DNA from: an uncultured Chitinophagaceae bacterium | Lineage (GTDB): Bacteria; Bacteroidota; Bacteroidia; Chitinophagales; Chitinophagaceae | Reading direction: 5' to 3' | Length of the DNA: 64,000 nucleotides | NCBI GenBank assembly: GCA_903883945.1 | Contig: CAISCV010000087.1 | Coordinates: 1 to 64,000 of the forward strand | Shown: piece after piece, positions 51,451 to 61,163 of the stretch | Layout of the letters: every line of letters starts with the position of its first letter | Numbering within the stretch: position 1 is the first letter of the stretch | Notes under the pieces: generated by a model | What the model was told of the DNA's origin: nothing | Databases searched by the model: none | What the model saw: the letters and a program-made list of their open reading frames with translations, nothing else | Position numbers and translations under genes: made by a program

Positions 51451-52611
51451 TTATTCTTTGTTTTTACGTTCTAGCCAAAGCCTTACTTCTCTCATCACTT
51501 TTTCATTACGAATGACTATACTAAACTTCTGGTCGTAATCCCACAGAGTTAGAGGGATATTCAATTCATCCATTATGTTTGTAATATCTTCTAAATAATT
51601 GCGACGATACTTTTCGTCTGCTTGGTTAATTACGCCTGCTTCAGTACATATTAAAGGCATACTTCTTTTTTTGCATTCCTCTGCTATTCGGCGTAGTCTC
51701 ACTGTAATATATTCTTTGGTGCCTTCGGCAGGGTATTTAGCGTAATCTTGTTCTATATCTGTGCCGGTGTAGGCTTTATCCAGGTTGGGCATTCTTCTTT
51801 TTTCATAGGGATAGGGTATATTCGTCACATAAGTATGGTCTTTAACCCATTCAGCCCCCTGATGTGTAAAAATGTAGGGCTCATAAAAATGGATGGTGTA
51901 AAGTATTTTGTCGTCATCAATTTTGCCTAAATCCAATAGTTCATCGGCATTGTTGTAGTTGGTACCACCTATAATATAATATCGCTCTTTTTCTTCCCAG
52001 CGTAATCCTTTAACAATGTAATTGATGTCTTCTTTCCAGGAAGTTCGTTCCTCTGTGGGTTCATTATACAGTTCAAAAAATAAAGATTGATAGCCCATAC
52101 CCCGGAATTTATTCTGCATTTGTTTCCACATCCACATGATTCGATCTCTTTCCAACATGCGGTTGTCGCTACCATAATATACCTTGCCGTAGTGATAGGT
52201 AATGATGAGTTTTAGACCCAATTTTTCACAGGTATTGTATGCATCTCCAAGTTTATCTAGCAAGGCAACCTGAAAATTGGACGAGTTTGGTTGCAGGTAC
52301 ATATCAAAAGCAACTGGCAGTCTTACTGTTTTGAAGCCGGCATTTTTGATAGCTGTTAATTTGTGGTTAATGTCTACATTCAACAAGCTGTCGGGAGGCT
52401 CCCAAGTATGTTCCAGTAGAGACAAATTCACTCCAGCGCCCATATTTGGGGGTATTTGGGCACAGTTATAATTTTTACTGCCGCAGTTATCCACACTGTT
52501 AGCAAAAAGTGGGAAGGTAATGGCATGTAATAGCACTAATAATATCATATTTGTACTAATTACAGCTATTTTCACAAAATAATTTGAATTTGTCTCTTTA
52601 ACCCGTGTCAT
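51451..52611 (-). CDS. Glycoside hydrolase family 5 (cellulase-like)
   Basis: GAGVNLSLLEHTWEPPD...GFKTVRLPVAFDMYL...LIITYHYG...FFELYNEPTEE...LICTEAGV; ATG 52611 preferred over 52665. Confidence 0.9.
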   Translation of the reverse strand: MTRVKETNSNYFVKIAVISTNMILLVLLHAITFPLFANSVDNCGSKNYNCAQIPPNMGAGVNLSLLEHTWEPPDSLLNVDINHKLTAIKNAGFKTVRLPVAFDMYLQPNSSNFQVALLDKLGDAYNTCEKLGLKLIITYHYGKVYYGSDNRMLERDRIMWMWKQMQNKFRGMGYQSLFFELYNEPTEERTSWKEDINYIVKGLRWEEKERYYIIGGTNYNNADELLDLGKIDDDKILYTIHFYEPYIFTHQGAEWVKDHTYVTNIPYPYEKRRMPNLDKAYTGTDIEQDYAKYPAEGTKEYITVRLRRIAEECKKRSMPLICTEAGVINQADEKYRRNYLEDITNIMDELNIPLTLWDYDQKFSIVIRNEKVMREVRLWLERKNKE

Positions 52612-53989
52612 GCTAAGTGATTTGAAGTTCTCTTTTGTAAATATAGACCAAGAAAGTCTATCCAATGAACTTGGGGCTAAAGTAAAATATTATGCCAATG
52701 TTATACATTGGACATTAATATATTCTTTGCCACTGTTTTGGTTATTGGATTATTCTTTTTTGTCTACGGACTGGCTGCCACTATTCGGTACTAGGATTGT
52801 ATTGGTTATATTGTGTCATAGTATTTATTTGTATGGCGGAATGCCAAAGAATAATTGGGATACAGAGATTACAATGTCTTTCATCATAGGACTCAACACT
52901 GTCTTCTATGCAGTGGTTTGTTCTGTAATTTCTATTTCATCTGTATTACCTTATTTTTTGATGTTCTCAGTGTACTTTTTGTTGCTGAATATTTCTATTT
53001 TTTGGAAACCTGTATATTCAATCATACAATGTGGGGTAGCTTATTTTTTGATTATTGTAGTCTTCAGGTTAATAAATAGGTATGACGGATATGCGGTACT
53101 CATTTCCAATGGAGGGGGGCTTTTCTTTGTAATATCATCTTTTTCATGTCTCATTGGATTTAACAGATACCAATTAGCTAAGAAAGAGATTGCTAAAAAC
53201 GTAATGATAGAGATGGCCAATAATCGACAGATAGATCAGTATGAAAAGATAGTAGATCAACAAAAGCAAATAAATGAGGCAAATAGAAAGCTAACTAAGT
53301 TGAGTCAATACAGATATGATACGCTTAATATGATGCTCCATGATTTTAGAAATTTTACAGGATCTATACAGATGTCATTAGACTTGTTGGGACAAACTAA
53401 TGAAAACCTCACCGAGGAACAAAAGGAGATCTTGGGTTATATAGGTATAGGGAATGATAAGCTGAATTATTTATCTCAAAAGTTAACAGCTTCAGCAATT
53501 GACGATTCTGAGAAAATCGATTATAGTTTTACTCAGATCGATTTGGGCAAGAAAGTAGAACAGGCTGTCATTGATTTATCAGATGCTGCAACGATGAAGC
53601 AGATTAATCTTCAATTGAATATTGATCCTTCGTCCATGACTGTTTTTCTGGATGAGATATTCTTAGATCAGGTCTTAGCAAAATTATTATCTAATGTAAT
53701 CAGGTATGCGAGTAGTGGAACCATAGTTAGTGTGCATTTACACAAGACTGACACTAAAGCTATTGTAGATATTGCTAATAAGGGGAAATTGTTAGGTCGT
53801 CAGAAATTGGACGAATTATTCAACGACATTGAAAGTAAAAAGGATTCTTCAACAAATTCATATTCTGATAACACCTCTGGGTTTGCTGTGTCAAGAAATT
53901 TGGCAGAACAAATGGGAGGTAAATTAACGTACAACAGCGATGAAATGACTGGAAATTTTTATCGGCTGGAGTTTAATATTTATAAATAA
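52610..53989 (+). CDS. Membrane sensor histidine kinase
   Basis: Multi-TM N-terminus, H-box-like MLHDFRNFTGSIQMSLDLL, ATPase region VLAKLLSNVIRYASSGTIVSVHL...GFAVSRNLAEQMGGKL. Confidence 0.85.
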   Translation: MLSDLKFSFVNIDQESLSNELGAKVKYYANVIHWTLIYSLPLFWLLDYSFLSTDWLPLFGTRIVLVILCHSIYLYGGMPKNNWDTEITMSFIIGLNTVFYAVVCSVISISSVLPYFLMFSVYFLLLNISIFWKPVYSIIQCGVAYFLIIVVFRLINRYDGYAVLISNGGGLFFVISSFSCLIGFNRYQLAKKEIAKNVMIEMANNRQIDQYEKIVDQQKQINEANRKLTKLSQYRYDTLNMMLHDFRNFTGSIQMSLDLLGQTNENLTEEQKEILGYIGIGNDKLNYLSQKLTASAIDDSEKIDYSFTQIDLGKKVEQAVIDLSDAATMKQINLQLNIDPSSMTVFLDEIFLDQVLAKLLSNVIRYASSGTIVSVHLHKTDTKAIVDIANKGKLLGRQKLDELFNDIESKKDSSTNSYSDNTSGFAVSRNLAEQMGGKLTYNSDEMTGNFYRLEFNIYK

Positions 53990-56032
53990 ATGAAAATGAA
54001 ATTCAAATTTATTTTATTGGCAGCCCTAGTGCTTGGTGCGATTGGTGTGAATGCACAATCTATTCGTTCTTTTGAGTCTATGGGGTATGAGGATGCCGCA
54101 ATTACTGGGATAAACGGTTCGTTGACGTATTTTATAAAAGTAAAGCCGGATGATGATGTTAATAAAAGTAGGCTTGTATTAAACTTCTCTGCTTCGCAGG
54201 TTCTAAACCCCGTTTCCTCGTTTATAGTGGTAAGTATAAAAGATTTGCCTGTATTTACCCAACGAATAGCCGTTTCTCCTACAGATACATTATTTAGAAT
54301 TGAAGTTCCTTTAAACCAAACAGAGGTTCAACCAGATGGTAGGTATATTAAAGTCAAGATATCTGTAACAATGAGTATACACGAAGAGCAGTGTAAAGAT
54401 ATTGACAACATTTCTCTTTGGCTGAGTGTAAAAAATAGCTCCTACATGAATGTAGTTAGCCAAGATATTGTAGGCTATCAAAGGAGTTTGAAAGAGTGGA
54501 TTCAAGAATTTACTTCTGTTTACACTCCAGCAGTTGCAGATTTAAATGATATGACATCTGGAGGAGTGTTGTATACCATATTGAAGCAGGCTACCCAAAA
54601 GGAAATTTATACAGGGGTTTACAATACATCCGATTCATTACCTTATGGGGTTGTAACTGGGGTTGCAGACAAGCTTCCTTATTCTGTTCGCCAAGTAATT
54701 CCTTCAATGGGGAAAGGACAAGGGCTTATCTCTCTGGCTAGGGTAAATACTGGCATGGGGTTAAGAACGATTATGGTAGTCACCGGTGCAGATATAGAAG
54801 GATATAAGAAAGCAATTAATGCACTAACGAGTAATAAAAGGTTAAATAGTACCTTCTCTGAAAAGATGTTGATCGATGAGGCTGTTCCCAGTTATGCAAA
54901 TATCGAAAATAAGTCCCCTTTAATTACAAGCTTGGAAAGTTTAGGGGCTACACCTTCGTTGCTAGAAGGTATAGGTTCGTTAAAGAGTAAATATATTTTC
55001 TCGCTCACAGAGTTCAATGCAATTCCTACCAAATTAACTTTCCACTTAGAAAGTTACTTTTCTAACTTGAGACAAGATGATAGAGGCTTTATCAATATTT
55101 ACCTGAATCAAAACTTAGTTTACAGCTCTAATTTGGTTAATAGAACTAGTTTCATAGAAGATATAGACCTGAAGCCGTATATGTTGAGCAAATTCAATAC
55201 GCTCGAAGTTGAGTTTAGATTCCACCCTTACACAAAGGCTTGTGAAAGTGGGTTTAGTAGTTTCTTTGCCTTTACCAACGTAAAAACTTCAACGTTAACT
55301 TTTGTAGGTGAGCAGGAAAATAAGTTTTATAGTTTCTTCAACTTCCCTGCTGAGTTTAGAAAGGTGCCAACTAAAATAGTAGTTTCACCAATGTTATATA
55401 ATTCTAACATTATTTCTTCAATTGGGGAACTATTTTATCAATTAAATGCACCGTTCAATCCTAACTACAGTAGAATTATTGTACCACCACTTGTATCTGC
55501 TGATAATACAAAGATGGATGACTTAAAGGGATTCAACGTCATTGCACTTCTTAACAAAAATGATAAGTTTGTAGACAATTTCAAACAGTTGCCCGTAAAT
55601 TTTAAAAAGGACTTTCAATTATACAAAGATGACCAAGGCAAGTTGACCTATTCTATCAATGATTTTTCTAATAGTGGTTTGGCAGAAATATTTAAAGAAA
55701 GAGGTAGTACTATATTGATGGTTACTTCGTTGGGTGGTGACAGTGCCAATAAATCTGCGTTCGAAAGTGTAGTAAAGAACTTTAGTACACAGCTAACTGA
55801 AATTGAAAGTAATGTTTGTATTGCTAATAGTGGGGGAAAGAGTAATTATTTCTTTAAACTTCCTGAAGATAATGACTTAGTTACTTATCGTGGTGAAACT
55901 AATGGCTTCCAGATTTTCTACGAAAAATACAAATGGATATTGTTAGGCTTACTTCTCGTACTAGTACTATTAGCCTTCTTATTTGTTCGCAATAAAGTGA
56001 AAGAATCTCAAGAAACATTTAAGGAACTGTAA
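53990..56032 (+). CDS. BcsB-like cellulose synthase regulatory subunit
   Basis: 680 aa, signal peptide, C-terminal TM; GVVTGVADKLPYSVRQVIPSMGKGQGLISLARVNTGMGLRTIMVVTGADIEGYKKAINAL. Confidence 0.8.
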   Translation: MKMKFKFILLAALVLGAIGVNAQSIRSFESMGYEDAAITGINGSLTYFIKVKPDDDVNKSRLVLNFSASQVLNPVSSFIVVSIKDLPVFTQRIAVSPTDTLFRIEVPLNQTEVQPDGRYIKVKISVTMSIHEEQCKDIDNISLWLSVKNSSYMNVVSQDIVGYQRSLKEWIQEFTSVYTPAVADLNDMTSGGVLYTILKQATQKEIYTGVYNTSDSLPYGVVTGVADKLPYSVRQVIPSMGKGQGLISLARVNTGMGLRTIMVVTGADIEGYKKAINALTSNKRLNSTFSEKMLIDEAVPSYANIENKSPLITSLESLGATPSLLEGIGSLKSKYIFSLTEFNAIPTKLTFHLESYFSNLRQDDRGFINIYLNQNLVYSSNLVNRTSFIEDIDLKPYMLSKFNTLEVEFRFHPYTKACESGFSSFFAFTNVKTSTLTFVGEQENKFYSFFNFPAEFRKVPTKIVVSPMLYNSNIISSIGELFYQLNAPFNPNYSRIIVPPLVSADNTKMDDLKGFNVIALLNKNDKFVDNFKQLPVNFKKDFQLYKDDQGKLTYSINDFSNSGLAEIFKERGSTILMVTSLGGDSANKSAFESVVKNFSTQLTEIESNVCIANSGGKSNYFFKLPEDNDLVTYRGETNGFQIFYEKYKWILLGLLLVLVLLAFLFVRNKVKESQETFKEL

Positions 56033-56054
56033 GTTGCCTTAATTAAAAAGAAAT

Positions 56055-57908
56055 ATGGCTCAGTGTGTATTGCATAAAATGACATCAGAAGGTTCATTTT
56101 CGGATGAAAAGCTCGAAACTGTATTACATATTTCGGATGTTTATAGCTATGCTCCCATCAAAGCAGCACTAAACTTTGGATTTCTGGTAAGACGGGATTA
56201 TTTGGACTTCCTAGAAAAGCATAATCAGAGTATCATTGATATCAGAAATGAGGAATTAGATGAAGTGTATATCAATCAATGTGATATATCCCACATGAAC
56301 TCTTTTCTATATCTGCCATTAAGAAAAAATAGTAGTGGGGAGTTATTAGTAGCTGCGGCTGATCCTTTCGATGAAAAGCTTATAACTAGTCTGGTAATTA
56401 AATTCAAATGTAAAATTATATTACTAGCTGCCTCAGATTTGGATATTACATGGCTCGGACATAAACTAAGAGGCGAGTTTTTTGTGAAGGAAGCGGTTTT
56501 TAGTTTGATGAAAACACATCCGGAGAGCTCTGCACTAATAACTTTTACCGATGCTCAGCTTTACTTTATTTTTGGTTCAATTGGGCTTACGTTTGCGCTA
56601 ATCATTCTTTTCTTCAAGCCTACGTTCATAGTGTTGAATTTACTTTCCTCACTGTTCTTTCTCTTTTCAATTCTTTTTAAACTATATCTAGCGCTAACAG
56701 GGTCTAAATCTGAGTTGCATTCTGTAGTTTCTAAAAGTGAGATAAAGGGAGTAAATGAATCTACACTACCAGTTTACACAATCCTACTTCCGGTTTATAA
56801 AGAGGATAAATTGATTCGTAAACTTATTTGGAACTTAAGAAGCCTTGATTATCCTAAAGAGAAGTTGGATGTAAAGCTACTTATTGAAGAAGACGATGAT
56901 AAAACGTTGAATGCAGTAAGAAACCTTGACTTCCCTGCCAATTTCGAGGTAATCGTAGTTCCGTTTCATATGCCAAAAACAAAACCAAAAGCTTGTAATT
57001 ACGGGTTACACTTTTCTAGAGGAGAATATCTAGCAATTTATGATGCAGAAGATGTTCCGGATAGTGATCAACTTAAGAAAGTGGTATGTCAGTTTAGAAA
57101 ACTGCCAGAAGAGTTTGTGGTACTTCAGGGTGCATTGAATTACTTCAATAAAAATGAAAATCTTTTGACAAGAATGTTCACTTTAGAATATTCTTATTGG
57201 TTCGATTATATGCTTAGTGGGTTGGAGACCTTAGATGTTCCTATACCACTAGGGGGCACTTCAAATCATTTTAAGTTGGCAACCCTTCTGGAGTTAGGGG
57301 CTTGGGATCCATTCAATGTTACCGAGGATGCCGATTTGGGGTTAAGGGTATTTGACAATGGGATGAAGGTAGGGGTTGTAAATAGTACGACATTGGAAGA
57401 AGCAAACAATGAATTTTTTAATTGGATTCGTCAGCGTAGTCGTTGGATTAAAGGATATATGCAAACATACCTGGTTCACATGCGTGATCCTGCAAGATTG
57501 GTGAGACAGGTAGGTTGGAGAGGGTTCTTTGGATTCAACTTCTTTATTGGGGGTACTTCTTTTACTTTCTTGTTGTATCCGATATTACTACTCTTCTTTG
57601 TTATTTACATGATTTTCAAGTTCGCATTCATTCGAAGCATATTCCCAGACTGGGTATTGTATATTTCTATTTTTAATTTTGTTGCAGGAAATGTACTAAT
57701 GATTTATGTAAACATGTTAGCGGTGTTTAAGAGGCGTTATTATGAGTTGATATTGTTTTCGATACTGAATCCTATTTATTGGTTAATGCACTCAAGGGCA
57801 GCTTATATGGGATTGTGGCAGTTAATTACTAAGCCGTTTTATTGGGAAAAAACAAACCATGGATTAAGTAAATTGTCATCTACAAGTGCAGTTGTAACTC
57901 CTGAATAA
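56055..57908 (+). CDS. Processive-type GT2 glycosyltransferase (BcsA/XagB/NfrB-like) with N-terminal GspE-N/MshEN-like domain
   Basis: YTILLPVYKED, YDAEDVPD, TEDADLG, QRSRW (QxxRW); N-terminal IKAALNFGFLVRRDYLDFLEKHNQ...LPLRKNSSGELLVAAADPFDEKLI. Confidence 0.88.
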   Translation: MAQCVLHKMTSEGSFSDEKLETVLHISDVYSYAPIKAALNFGFLVRRDYLDFLEKHNQSIIDIRNEELDEVYINQCDISHMNSFLYLPLRKNSSGELLVAAADPFDEKLITSLVIKFKCKIILLAASDLDITWLGHKLRGEFFVKEAVFSLMKTHPESSALITFTDAQLYFIFGSIGLTFALIILFFKPTFIVLNLLSSLFFLFSILFKLYLALTGSKSELHSVVSKSEIKGVNESTLPVYTILLPVYKEDKLIRKLIWNLRSLDYPKEKLDVKLLIEEDDDKTLNAVRNLDFPANFEVIVVPFHMPKTKPKACNYGLHFSRGEYLAIYDAEDVPDSDQLKKVVCQFRKLPEEFVVLQGALNYFNKNENLLTRMFTLEYSYWFDYMLSGLETLDVPIPLGGTSNHFKLATLLELGAWDPFNVTEDADLGLRVFDNGMKVGVVNSTTLEEANNEFFNWIRQRSRWIKGYMQTYLVHMRDPARLVRQVGWRGFFGFNFFIGGTSFTFLLYPILLLFFVIYMIFKFAFIRSIFPDWVLYISIFNFVAGNVLMIYVNMLAVFKRRYYELILFSILNPIYWLMHSRAAYMGLWQLITKPFYWEKTNHGLSKLSSTSAVVTPE

Positions 57909-59494
57909 TGAATAGATTTATTGAGAAATATATAAATGGATTTCTGGCACTTGTTCTACTTGTGTTTTATCTGCTATTATCTTGGATAATACACAGGGCT
58001 GGGTATGACCATTCTGAAAATTTATTTATTGCTGAGAAAATAAAAATATTGTTTGACACGAATGAAAATAACCTTGTTACTGTAGGTACAACCTTTCCAA
58101 CTGTTGTATTTTTATCTTCCTTATTATTTACCCCTTTTGGACCTTTGTTCGCAACGGTTTTAGCTTCAATATCTCTAACTGTATTGCTGTATTATTCTAT
58201 ATTAAAAGATTTTAAGGAAACGTCGAAACTACCTGACTTTGTTTATATACCATTGGTGTCTTTACTTTTCTTCATGCACCCTGGTTTAATTTATGCTGCA
58301 ATTTCCGGAAGAGGTGTTGCAGCCATACTTCTTTTCTTTTATTATTTATTCAGAAGTCTATTCAGGTACTACAGAACCCAAACTACTTTCTATCTTTCAA
58401 TGGCAAGCATTTACCTTACAGGTCTTGTTTTCTGCGATTTCAATTTTATCTGGTTGTTGTTGGCATTCTTTCCATTTATAGTATTTGTTTCTTTAGAAGG
58501 ATTAAAAATCAATAAAGAACAGGCTCCTGTTGCCCAGTATTTTGAGTCGGTTAATAATTCTTCCCAACGACGTAAGCTCACAAACAGAGCTGTAGCAATA
58601 TATATAATCATATTCTTGTTGCCAGGGGGCGCATTACTTTTATTTGGCTACTTAAATGATAGTCACGCAGGTAACCCCACTTATTACCTAACGAGTCAAT
58701 ATGCAAACTGGCATGTGCTTGGCAATATTCCACTTGGGGATGTAATTAGTCAAAAGGGAACTAATGCCACCTTACAATCACAGATTGTTTTTCAAGCGTA
58801 TGTTCTTCTGCTTAATCCTTTGTTGCTATTAACTTTTTACTACTTTAAAGGCAAATTGTATGAGTTCTTTACAATTGTAGCCCCTTTCATATTGGTCGCA
58901 ATTTTAATTATTAATACACAATTTTATTTTCTAATAGAGTACTATCTAATCTTTTTGATATTAGGAATTGTTGGTCTAACTTTTTATGCAGGCAGACAGT
59001 TTACCAAAAAGGTTACTTGGTTCATTTTTTTTATTGTAGGTCTGCTGAATGTTTTTATGGGAATTTATTATTTCAAACGAACCAATGATGAAGAAGAAAA
59101 GAAATTTTTCTCTACACTTAGACATTATAAGAATTGGGGTAGAAAAAAAGAAACAGATGAAGATTTTAAAGTGGCTAGATACATTAATGAAATTGCGGAT
59201 GTTAACAATAAGGTATTGGTCGACGATGCTGCAGCGTTTAAAATTGTCGCGCAACTAAAATCTTTAGAAGGTATTGAGTTGCCAGCTAATAAAAGTTTTG
59301 GTACGGTAGTAGAAAATCCATTGGTTGGCGTAAAGTATATGTGTGTGGCAAAATTGGAAAATAAATATAAAAACTTTACTGTACTTAACTCGTATAACCT
59401 TGCTATGATGCAAGCAAAGGGGCAATTTATAACCGAATTGGTATATCAAACAGAAAATTGGGCCATCTATAAGCTGTATCCTGTAGAGGAGTAA
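57908..59494 (+). CDS. Polytopic membrane protein, GT39-like organisation
   Basis: 528 aa, many TM helices; start overlaps the preceding stop (TAATG). Confidence 0.65.
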   Translation: MNRFIEKYINGFLALVLLVFYLLLSWIIHRAGYDHSENLFIAEKIKILFDTNENNLVTVGTTFPTVVFLSSLLFTPFGPLFATVLASISLTVLLYYSILKDFKETSKLPDFVYIPLVSLLFFMHPGLIYAAISGRGVAAILLFFYYLFRSLFRYYRTQTTFYLSMASIYLTGLVFCDFNFIWLLLAFFPFIVFVSLEGLKINKEQAPVAQYFESVNNSSQRRKLTNRAVAIYIIIFLLPGGALLLFGYLNDSHAGNPTYYLTSQYANWHVLGNIPLGDVISQKGTNATLQSQIVFQAYVLLLNPLLLLTFYYFKGKLYEFFTIVAPFILVAILIINTQFYFLIEYYLIFLILGIVGLTFYAGRQFTKKVTWFIFFIVGLLNVFMGIYYFKRTNDEEEKKFFSTLRHYKNWGRKKETDEDFKVARYINEIADVNNKVLVDDAAAFKIVAQLKSLEGIELPANKSFGTVVENPLVGVKYMCVAKLENKYKNFTVLNSYNLAMMQAKGQFITELVYQTENWAIYKLYPVEE

Positions 59495-59652: not shown

Positions 59653-60225
59653 TTGAACGAGCAATTACTCATACAACAACTACAACAAGGTATAGAGCAA
59701 GCGTTTGCCCAAGTGGTCGATGCATATAAGCACTTGGTTTATAATACTGTTTTAAGCCTTTTGCAGAATAAGGATGAGGCAGAAGACGTGTCACAGGAAG
59801 TATTTATTCAAATGTATCAGTCTATTGGTCAATTTAAAGGAGAGTCTAAACTTTCTACTTGGTTGTATCGGATTGCAGTTTCCAAGTCGCTCGATTGGCA
59901 AAGACGTAAGAATAGAAAGAAACGTTTTGCTTTTATCGAGGGATTGTTTGGCGCAGATGACAGCATCAAACATGATCCACCAGAGTTTAACCATCCAGGT
60001 GTAGTTATTGAAAACAAAGAGAAAGCCAGTTTGCTTTTCAGGGCAATCAAATCTTTGCCAGAAAATCAAAAGGTTGCTTTTACCCTCAATAAGGTAGAGG
60101 GGTTGAGTTATATGGAAGTGGCAGAAGTAATGCAAGTAACAGAAGCTTCTGTAGAAGCTTTGTTGCATAGGGCAAAACAAAATTTAAGAAAGGAACTAGG
60201 CAATTATTATCATAAACATAAATAA
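59653..60225 (+). CDS. ECF RNA polymerase sigma factor
   Basis: NKDEAEDVSQEVFIQMYQSIGQFKGESKLSTWLYRIAVSKSLD...LPENQKVAFTLNKVEGLSYMEVAEVMQVTEASVEALLHRAKQNLRK; TTG start. Confidence 0.93.
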   Translation: MNEQLLIQQLQQGIEQAFAQVVDAYKHLVYNTVLSLLQNKDEAEDVSQEVFIQMYQSIGQFKGESKLSTWLYRIAVSKSLDWQRRKNRKKRFAFIEGLFGADDSIKHDPPEFNHPGVVIENKEKASLLFRAIKSLPENQKVAFTLNKVEGLSYMEVAEVMQVTEASVEALLHRAKQNLRKELGNYYHKHK

Positions 60226-60231
60226 ATTCTG

Positions 60232-60588
60232 ATGGAACATTTACACAATCAGGAGCTACAAATAGAAGAGGTTATCAATAGCATCCAGCATATTTCGAGG
60301 GCTGAAGCGCCACCTTTTTTCTATACCCGTTTGCAGGCAAGAATGCTAAAGACAGAAGAGCAGACTTTTATGTTACAACTTCTTGGAATAATTACAAGAC
60401 CTGTATTTGCAATAAGCACCCTCTCCTTGTTTGTATTACTAAATGCAGTTGCAATTACCTCTGTCTTGAAAGATAGTAGGGTAGTAGCCAATCGTGCAAT
60501 AAGTAGTGATGGGGCACTGCAATCTTTTGTAAAGGAGTATGATTTATCTGTTTCTACGCTATACAGCGATATAAAAACGAATGAATAA
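60232..60588 (+). CDS. Putative membrane anti-sigma factor
   Basis: 118 aa, one TM, directly downstream of the sigma gene and overlapping the next ORF. Confidence 0.65.
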   Translation: MEHLHNQELQIEEVINSIQHISRAEAPPFFYTRLQARMLKTEEQTFMLQLLGIITRPVFAISTLSLFVLLNAVAITSVLKDSRVVANRAISSDGALQSFVKEYDLSVSTLYSDIKTNE

Positions 60589-61163
60589 TGAAAAACACTA
60601 ATTCTAGAACAGGCTGGATAATAACTATATTGATATTGGTAATTATCAATATAACCACCTTGTTTACAATCTGGCACACCGTAAATGAACACCACCCACC
60701 TAAAAATGGAAAAAGTGCTTCAAACTTTCTCATAAAACAACTAGCGTTTGATAGTATTCAAAAAGAAAAATATTTGCTACTTGTTCAACAGCATCAACAG
60801 GATATAAGAGATATCAAGGAGCAAGCAAAGGAGTCTAAGGGAACTTTTTTTTCTTTAGTATCAGATACAACTATCTCTGATGAAACCATCAAGGCTCAAG
60901 CAATGAAGGTATTTGAAGGCGAGTATCAAATAGCAATCATAACATTTCACCATTTTCAACAGGTTCGAGCATTGTGTACGCCCGTACAAAAGAAAAAGTT
61001 TGATAGCATCATTAAAGAACTTGTGGCAATGATGGGACCTCAAAATGGGCCACACCAACCTCCTCATGAAGGAAATCCTAGTTCAAGGGAGGGGCATCAC
61101 CCACCACCACCAGATGGTGAAGGCTTTCCTCCCCCACCGCCAGATGATAATCCCAGACCCTAA
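60588..61163 (+). CDS. Spy/CpxP- or CnrX-like periplasmic sensor with His/Pro-rich tail
   Basis: N-terminal TM anchor, helical region, tail GPHQPPHEGNPSSREGHHPPPPDGEGFPPPPPDDNPRP. Confidence 0.7.
   Translation: MKNTNSRTGWIITILILVIINITTLFTIWHTVNEHHPPKNGKSASNFLIKQLAFDSIQKEKYLLLVQQHQQDIRDIKEQAKESKGTFFSLVSDTTISDETIKAQAMKVFEGEYQIAIITFHHFQQVRALCTPVQKKKFDSIIKELVAMMGPQNGPHQPPHEGNPSSREGHHPPPPDGEGFPPPPPDDNPRP

Follow-up and report, generated by a model that had tools for sequence, protein, structure and literature searches.

We analyzed a 64,000-nucleotide stretch of DNA, referred to here as the window, from an uncultured Chitinophagaceae bacterium (NCBI GenBank assembly GCA_903883945.1, contig CAISCV010000087.1) and focused on a five-gene module at positions 51,451 to 59,494. 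The module probably encodes a xag/sfz-like synthase-dependent exopolysaccharide machine in which control by cyclic di-GMP (c-di-GMP) has been lost and a histidine kinase (HK)-like protein most likely supplies control. Its identity as an exopolysaccharide synthase, as judged from sequence comparison, is well supported. The evidence comprises the gene content of the module and its conservation, the loss of c-di-GMP-binding motifs from the synthase, the absence of GGDEF proteins from nearly all hosts, the placement of the synthase in a separate clade and a predicted GT-C fold for its membrane partner.

The plus strand encodes, in order, the HK-like membrane protein (52610..53989; Pfam HATPase_c), a BcsB-like periplasmic subunit (53990..56032; PF03170, 73.2 bits) with a signal peptide, two BcsB stretches and a C-terminal transmembrane segment, a processive family 2 glycosyltransferase (GT2) polysaccharide synthase with an N-terminal MshEN-type domain (56055..57908; GT2 Pfam families), and a polytopic protein of 528 amino acids with a predicted GT-C fold (57908..59494). 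The HK/BcsB junction reads TAAATG, the GT2/polytopic junction reads TAATG, and a gap of 22 bp separates BcsB from GT2. A secreted family 5 glycoside hydrolase (GH5) is encoded divergently on the minus strand, with its longest open reading frame (ORF) at 51451..52665 and a match of 112 bits to Pfam Cellulase (PF00150). A preliminary description of this DNA had listed the same five ORFs and both of the TAAATG and TAATG junctions, all of which we found again. The GH5 that it reported is also present, but its longest-ORF start, which overlaps the HK start by 56 bases, is less likely than an internal one. From its position at the signal peptide, an internal Met at approximately 52548 (MILLVLLHAITFPLFA) is probably the true start, which would leave a short intergenic region.

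Full-length GT2 homologs with 70-98% identity were found in 14 relatives, together with fragments, among 200 genomes of the same family. The same five-gene set surrounds the GT2 in these relatives within unrelated flanks, with the GH5 missing from one locus (L046). A scan of species genomes yielded 80 loci with 60-98% identity from Chitinophagaceae, Sediminibacterium, Hydrotalea, Pedobacter, Mucilaginibacter, Spirosoma and Fibrisoma. Enough flanking sequence was available for 63 loci (Chitinophagaceae, Pedobacter, Mucilaginibacter, Spirosoma and Fibrisoma); the HK-BcsB-GT2-polytopic order and strand were kept in every one, and the divergent GH5 was present in 52. Because order and strand are kept in all 63 of these related loci, the arrangement is conserved far beyond chance, and the neighborhood conservation on which the preliminary description had made its proposal depend is thus observed. 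The other outcome that it had set against its proposal, a GT2 that clusters with ordinary BcsA or with non-polymerizing GT2s, likewise did not materialize. The GT2 changes slowly, with approximately 60% identity at the far end of this range, where BcsB, the HK and the polytopic protein drop to 20-35%. At phylum scale, the BcsB profile matched 10 of 396 genomes, and the BcsB-GT2-polytopic core was still present in three more distant Bacteroidota (G557, G415 and G269). In the literature searched, we came across no account of the Bacteroidota module.

Sequence and fold searches of the PDB both place BcsA and hyaluronan synthases nearest to the GT2 among solved structures, and the fold matches also include an archaeal mannosyltransferase. 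The catalytic motifs DAED (residues 330-333), TED (423-425) and QRSRW (460-464), encoded at 57042..57446 on the plus strand, are invariant in a 32-row alignment. We placed the catalytic core in a maximum-likelihood tree, drawn without XagB, Sfz2, other proteobacterial relatives or Shinella. The core fell into a cross-phylum clade with sequences from Geobacillus, Hyphomicrobiales, Frigoribacterium and others, and BcsA, PgaC and the Listeria GT2 (PssC) lay across a 98/93 branch from it. NfrB was on the module side of the tree, at the end of a very long branch that makes its placement unsure. Close full-length GT2 relatives outside the phylum are plasmid-borne.

These results bear on the possibility that the module is an ordinary c-di-GMP-controlled Bcs cellulose synthase operon in which a divergent N-terminal receptor has replaced PilZ. 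Such an operon would account for the presence of BcsB, the alignment of the GT2 to BcsA, and the resemblance of the GH5 to endo-beta-1,4-glucanases and to the Clostridial cellulose hydrolase CcsZ. However, the GT2 core lies outside the BcsA clade, consistent with the earlier suggestion that it is not an ordinary BcsA, and scores 54 bits against a CelA cut-off of 699 bits. The absences of PilZ and BcsC reported in the preliminary description also held: a Pfam scan (E <= 1) found no PilZ in the GT2, and no BCSC_C domain (PF05420) was found anywhere in the genome, while an E. coli positive control matched. The genome is likewise without GGDEF proteins, and the RLG motifs of the N-terminal domain are lost. 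The tree, the lack of PilZ and BcsC and the score far under the CelA cut-off led us to reject cellulose synthase proper, and we give very little credence to a divergent Bcs operon.

The window's own genome (L050 7530-10054, contig C281) and another locus (L193 7877-14457) encode a second GT2, which has no MshEN and shares 31-33% identity with that of the module. It adjoins a UDP-GlcNAc 2-epimerase-like (WecB-type) gene, reminiscent of the NfrB-WecB link, and a distant GT2 in G212 likewise lies near a gene of this type.

The GspE-N-like character that the preliminary description ascribed to the GT2 N-terminus was borne out by profile and structure comparisons of the MshEN-type domain (amino acids 1-150; 56055..56504, plus strand). 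Pfam MshEN (PF05157) matched with 29.4 bits against a cut-off of 23.1, and a profile of the N-terminus (A7), which includes Geobacillus and Hyphomicrobiales rows, matched MshE (5htl, E=1.5e-11), PilB (5tsg, E=1.3e-14) and also PilF; the structure model was confident, with a predicted local distance difference test (pLDDT) score of approximately 93. The c-di-GMP motif of MshEN domains consists of two copies of RLGxx(L/V/I)(L/V/I)xxG... (PMC5013675). The Bacteroidota module has no RLG in the first copy, and its second copy reads PIKAALNFGFL, with Lys (K36) replacing the RLG glycine in all 81 sequences, in which G42 and R46 are also fixed; in the window this position is P34-I35-K36 (56154..56162, plus strand). 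The Geobacillus GT2 retains SRLGELLVKEKLL and SPLGQIVISLGYV (RLG/PLG, with PLG at the second motif), and the Hyphomicrobiales GT2 retains IGELLVAKGLL and FGDIILSKGW. An RLG-type glycine change in E. coli NfrB, G491L, abolishes NfrB-dependent infection by phage N4 (PMC8669472). The Pfam match itself spans only amino acids 60-138 of the window GT2, beyond the ligand motif, so it does not test the motif and was rejected as support for c-di-GMP binding.

No GGDEF protein was found, with positive controls in place, in 49 of the 51 distinct module-bearing genomes, the window's own among them, and GGDEF was absent from 192 of the 200 family genomes. Because a GGDEF protein is available in so few genomes (2/51 with the module, 8/200 in the family), the MshEN domain cannot read c-di-GMP in nearly all hosts. 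The loss of both RLG motifs, together with hosts that have no GGDEF protein, led us to reject a c-di-GMP receptor and runs counter to the c-di-GMP binding hinted at in the preliminary description. Although sequence comparison shows the domain to be homologous to those of MshE and PilB, it cannot act here as a standard receptor for c-di-GMP. Most likely the GT2 descended from c-di-GMP-gated synthases, and the Bacteroidota clade lost the contact residues and kept the domain. It would thus be a clean natural example of a receptor domain that has outlasted its second messenger, with the motifs intact in Geobacillus and their loss fixed in Bacteroidota without diguanylate cyclases. Annotation pipelines will label these proteins "cellulose synthase, c-di-GMP-binding," and both parts of that label are probably wrong.

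The invariant K36, G42 and R46 suggest a kept surface, which could mean that some other nucleotide has replaced c-di-GMP as the ligand of the domain. This conservation may equally be structural or serve protein contact, and no ligand candidate was found; cyclic di-AMP was rejected as the replacement, since the window's own genome has no DAC (the c-di-AMP cyclase). A change of ligand therefore seems to us very improbable.

We examined the HK-like protein in an alignment of 30 sequences and by column counts over 70 relatives. D245 and the N-box residue N362 are kept in all 70, and the phospho-acceptor H244 is kept in 64; the six exceptions are three Pedobacter and three Chitinophagaceae-type sequences. 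Of the 70, 20 do not have the first G2 glycine, among them the window protein, which has H244 and N362, an altered G1 box (DIANKG) and an eroded G2 box (TSGFAVSR). Canonical HDLKN and LGLGLSIAK boxes are present in the Mucilaginibacter and Spirosoma proteins. No response regulator was recognized in the module loci examined, and the HK gene is present in all 63 flanked modules despite the erosion of its motifs. Taken together, motif erosion, universal retention and the lack of a module response regulator fit a regulatory subunit that is turning into a pseudokinase. The HK-like protein is the best candidate for the new regulatory input and may have taken over the switch.

The same machine could be served by a conventional sensor kinase acting on transcription through phosphorylation of a response regulator encoded elsewhere, leaving the MshEN remnant as a scaffold only. 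The near-universal H244 and N362 and the canonical boxes of Mucilaginibacter and Spirosoma would be expected of such a kinase. However, no response regulator was recognized in the loci examined, and the gene has been kept in every flanked module even though His is lost in Pedobacter and three Chitinophagaceae and the G2 box of the window protein is eroded. We regard a conventional kinase as a serious possibility that nonetheless falls short of being probable. A bolder form of the direct-control idea is that the vestigial MshEN domain became a docking site for a membrane (pseudo)histidine kinase, which switches the synthase by direct contact after the loss of c-di-GMP and would be a synthase subunit rather than part of a two-component system; we consider this speculative and distinctly unlikely. 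A response-regulator-like gene at L181 13419-14348 follows the Hyphomicrobiales cassette, has a C-terminus resembling a diverged GGDEF domain and is itself followed by a kinase; this pair is possibly a c-di-GMP-era version of the HK link.

The preliminary description had recognized the large polytopic protein, which is indeed present, and had not seen its glycosyltransferase fold. The protein has no significant Pfam match. A model built from 41 sequences reached a pLDDT of 86 and a predicted template modeling (pTM) score of 0.88, and each of the top 14 Foldseek matches in the PDB was a GT-C enzyme or a complex that contains one (STT3/OST, ALG9, ArnT, PglB, AftA and Pmt4). E43-K44 is invariant in the region of the first external loop, where the GT-C catalytic acid is expected, and the counterparts in Geobacillus, G372 and G269 have weak PMT-family matches. 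The model and its matches make the protein a candidate periplasmic glycosyltransferase using a lipid-linked sugar. Enzymes of the GT-C type draw on lipid-linked sugars at the non-cytoplasmic face of the membrane, so the protein would naturally be expected to decorate the chain, and the assignment predicts a decorated rather than a plain polymer.

The best PDB relatives of the GH5 are the endoglucanases CelC, FnCel5A and TmCel5A, with CcsZ (6uje, from the Clostridial cellulose locus) further down. Its acid/base motif N201-E202-P203 (NEP) and nucleophile E342 (TEAG) are at least 97% conserved in 52 relatives. By this resemblance, the GH5 suggests a beta-1,4-linked backbone without proving it.

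Alternatively, GDP-mannose could be the precursor and the polymer a mannan-type chain instead of a glucan. The related cassette of Geobacillus starts with a ManC-like (GMP_PMI) gene (L180 6564-7943; TIGR01479, 241 bits), and that of Hyphomicrobiales has a divergent GH113 hydrolase. GH113 is a family known for beta-mannanases. An archaeal mannosyltransferase is, as noted, among the GT2 fold matches, and a phosphomannose isomerase flanks the sfz cluster (PMC8250860). However, the ManC match falls under the model cut-off of 373 bits, endoglucanases are the nearest relatives of the window GH5, and no sugar-nucleotide gene was recognized in the Bacteroidota module, whose donor residues are unreadable from sequence. 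We consider a mannan rather unlikely.

A further protein, X, bears on the route of export. This secreted protein of approximately 275 amino acids, a likely outer-membrane beta-barrel with no Pfam match, is encoded between BcsB and GT2 in Pedobacter, Spirosoma, Fibrisoma, G557 and G415, and in G269 a divergent X adjoins BcsB. Loci with X between the two genes include L116 7133-7960, L119 7155-7994, L122 7157-7978, L124 7154-7978 and, on the minus strand, L186 8176-9009. Homologs of X occur elsewhere in most other module genomes, several beside an acyltransferase-like gene, and a fragment occurs in the window's own genome. One homolog lies near a GT2-like fusion of approximately 1140 amino acids. 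With its barrel fold predicted from sequence, X is a candidate exporter in cis or in trans, and may export synthase-dependent polysaccharides in Bacteroidota more generally. It is pertinent to the alternative that the glycan is retained in the periplasm or cell envelope for want of an outer-membrane exporter in the module. The genome has no BCSC_C domain, the Chitinophagaceae and Mucilaginibacter modules hold no porin-like gene, and the monoderm Geobacillus needs no outer-membrane exporter, all of which would suit a retained glycan. The likely barrel in the Pedobacter, Spirosoma, Fibrisoma and two other Bacteroidota modules argues for export, and its homologs elsewhere in most other module genomes make export in trans possible; we think retention in the envelope doubtful. 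A BcsB profile search of the PDB gave nothing useful, and the Geobacillus BcsB, used as a query against plasmids, matched only itself.

From these components we infer how polymer synthesis, decoration and trimming might proceed. The GT2 would polymerize an activated hexose and thread the chain through the inner membrane, and BcsB would take it up in the periplasm, where the GT-C protein may use a lipid-linked donor to attach sugar units to the chain (or to a partner) and the GH5 may trim or release the chain. The MshEN domain, its c-di-GMP-contacting residues lost, would be kept for structure or protein contact. The HK-like protein, whose role we infer most of all, would control the synthase by direct contact or via an unlinked regulator. 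The module defines an operon, conserved across many Bacteroidota of soil and freshwater, Mucilaginibacter included, that would make an extracellular glycan.

Several observations weigh against an exopolysaccharide machine freed from c-di-GMP control. No product is known for the module, and the window module contains no outer-membrane exporter. Two of the 51 module-bearing genomes do have a GGDEF protein; furthermore, because 192 of 200 family genomes are without one, the lack of GGDEF is lineage background, and a module-specific association was rejected. Most HK members retain the phospho-acceptor His together with the N box, which leaves room for a normal kinase. The GT-C fold is a predicted one, with Foldseek E values of 2.8e-5 to 4e-3, TM-scores of approximately 0.5 and a putative catalytic acid, and orthology with XagB/C/D and Sfz2-4 is judged from the domains and gene lengths given for them in the literature.

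Immediately beyond the module, window positions 59653-61163 encode an extracytoplasmic function (ECF) sigma factor, a putative anti-sigma factor and an LTXXQ-like protein, an arrangement seen within the same genus. A similar sigma/LTXXQ pair lies on the opposite side of the module, beside the GH5, in L083.

The closest described counterparts are the xag-like and sfz clusters and xagABCD of Xanthomonas, in which a BcsB-like gene lies beside a GT2 that has an EpsE/GspE-N domain (IPR007831) at its N-terminus, followed by a protein of approximately 500 amino acids and a glycoside hydrolase. A bcsB-xagB-xagC-xagD cluster is common to stalk-forming iron oxidizers (Kato et al. 2015; PMC4643136), and sfz encodes BcsB (Sfz1), an EpsE-N GT2 (Sfz2), an uncharacterized protein of approximately 500 amino acids (Sfz3) and a hydrolase (Sfz4) reported as GH10 (PMC8250860). 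The Achromobacter nfr cluster also includes a BcsB homolog (PMC8669472). With these clusters and a Geobacillus plasmid on record, the pairing of BcsB with a GspE-N GT2 is not new, contrary to what the preliminary description had suggested. The module polytopic protein (528 amino acids) resembles Sfz3/XagC (approximately 500-511; Table 2, PMC8250860) in length, the only point compared. Unlike xag/sfz, the module adds an HK, has a divergent GH5 where Sfz4 is GH10, has lost the RLG motifs and resides in hosts without GGDEF.

The Geobacillus stearothermophilus plasmid CP128455 carries BcsB, GT2 (48% identity over the full length) and a GT-C protein (GT39) in the same order. Unlike the module, its cassette retains the c-di-GMP motifs, has neither HK nor GH5 and has the upstream ManC-like gene, which hints at a GDP-mannose donor in the Geobacillus branch. 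The Hyphomicrobiales GT2 comes after a protein with a weak BcsB match (E 0.01) and the divergent GH113; beyond it lie a polytopic protein, the response-regulator-like gene and the kinase. A BcsB-GT2-GT-C core is thus shared across phyla with Geobacillus and probably with Hyphomicrobiales.

More distant systems share fewer elements. E. coli NfrB/NfrA, the N4 glycan receptor, also combines a GT2 with an MshEN-type domain, but in NfrB, a very distant GT2, this domain is C-terminal rather than at amino acids 1-150, and the system is c-di-GMP regulated and has the outer-membrane partner NfrA. BcsA/BcsB cellulose synthase shares the GT2 fold and the BcsB partner, whereas the module is without PilZ, BcsC and c-di-GMP control and belongs to a separate GT2 clade. 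Listeria pss likewise pairs a GT2 with BcsB, but its GT2 is of another clade and has no MshEN, and pss includes a GGDEF gene. In Clostridia, a GH5 lies beside the cellulose synthase in ccs loci (PMC7710045); the GH5 linkage is alike, but ccs has a GT2 of another clade, no MshEN and no BcsB homolog. Four features of the Bacteroidota variant appear to be new: the c-di-GMP motif has been lost throughout, an HK-like partner is obligatory, the GH5 is divergent, and the third gene is assigned to GT-C.

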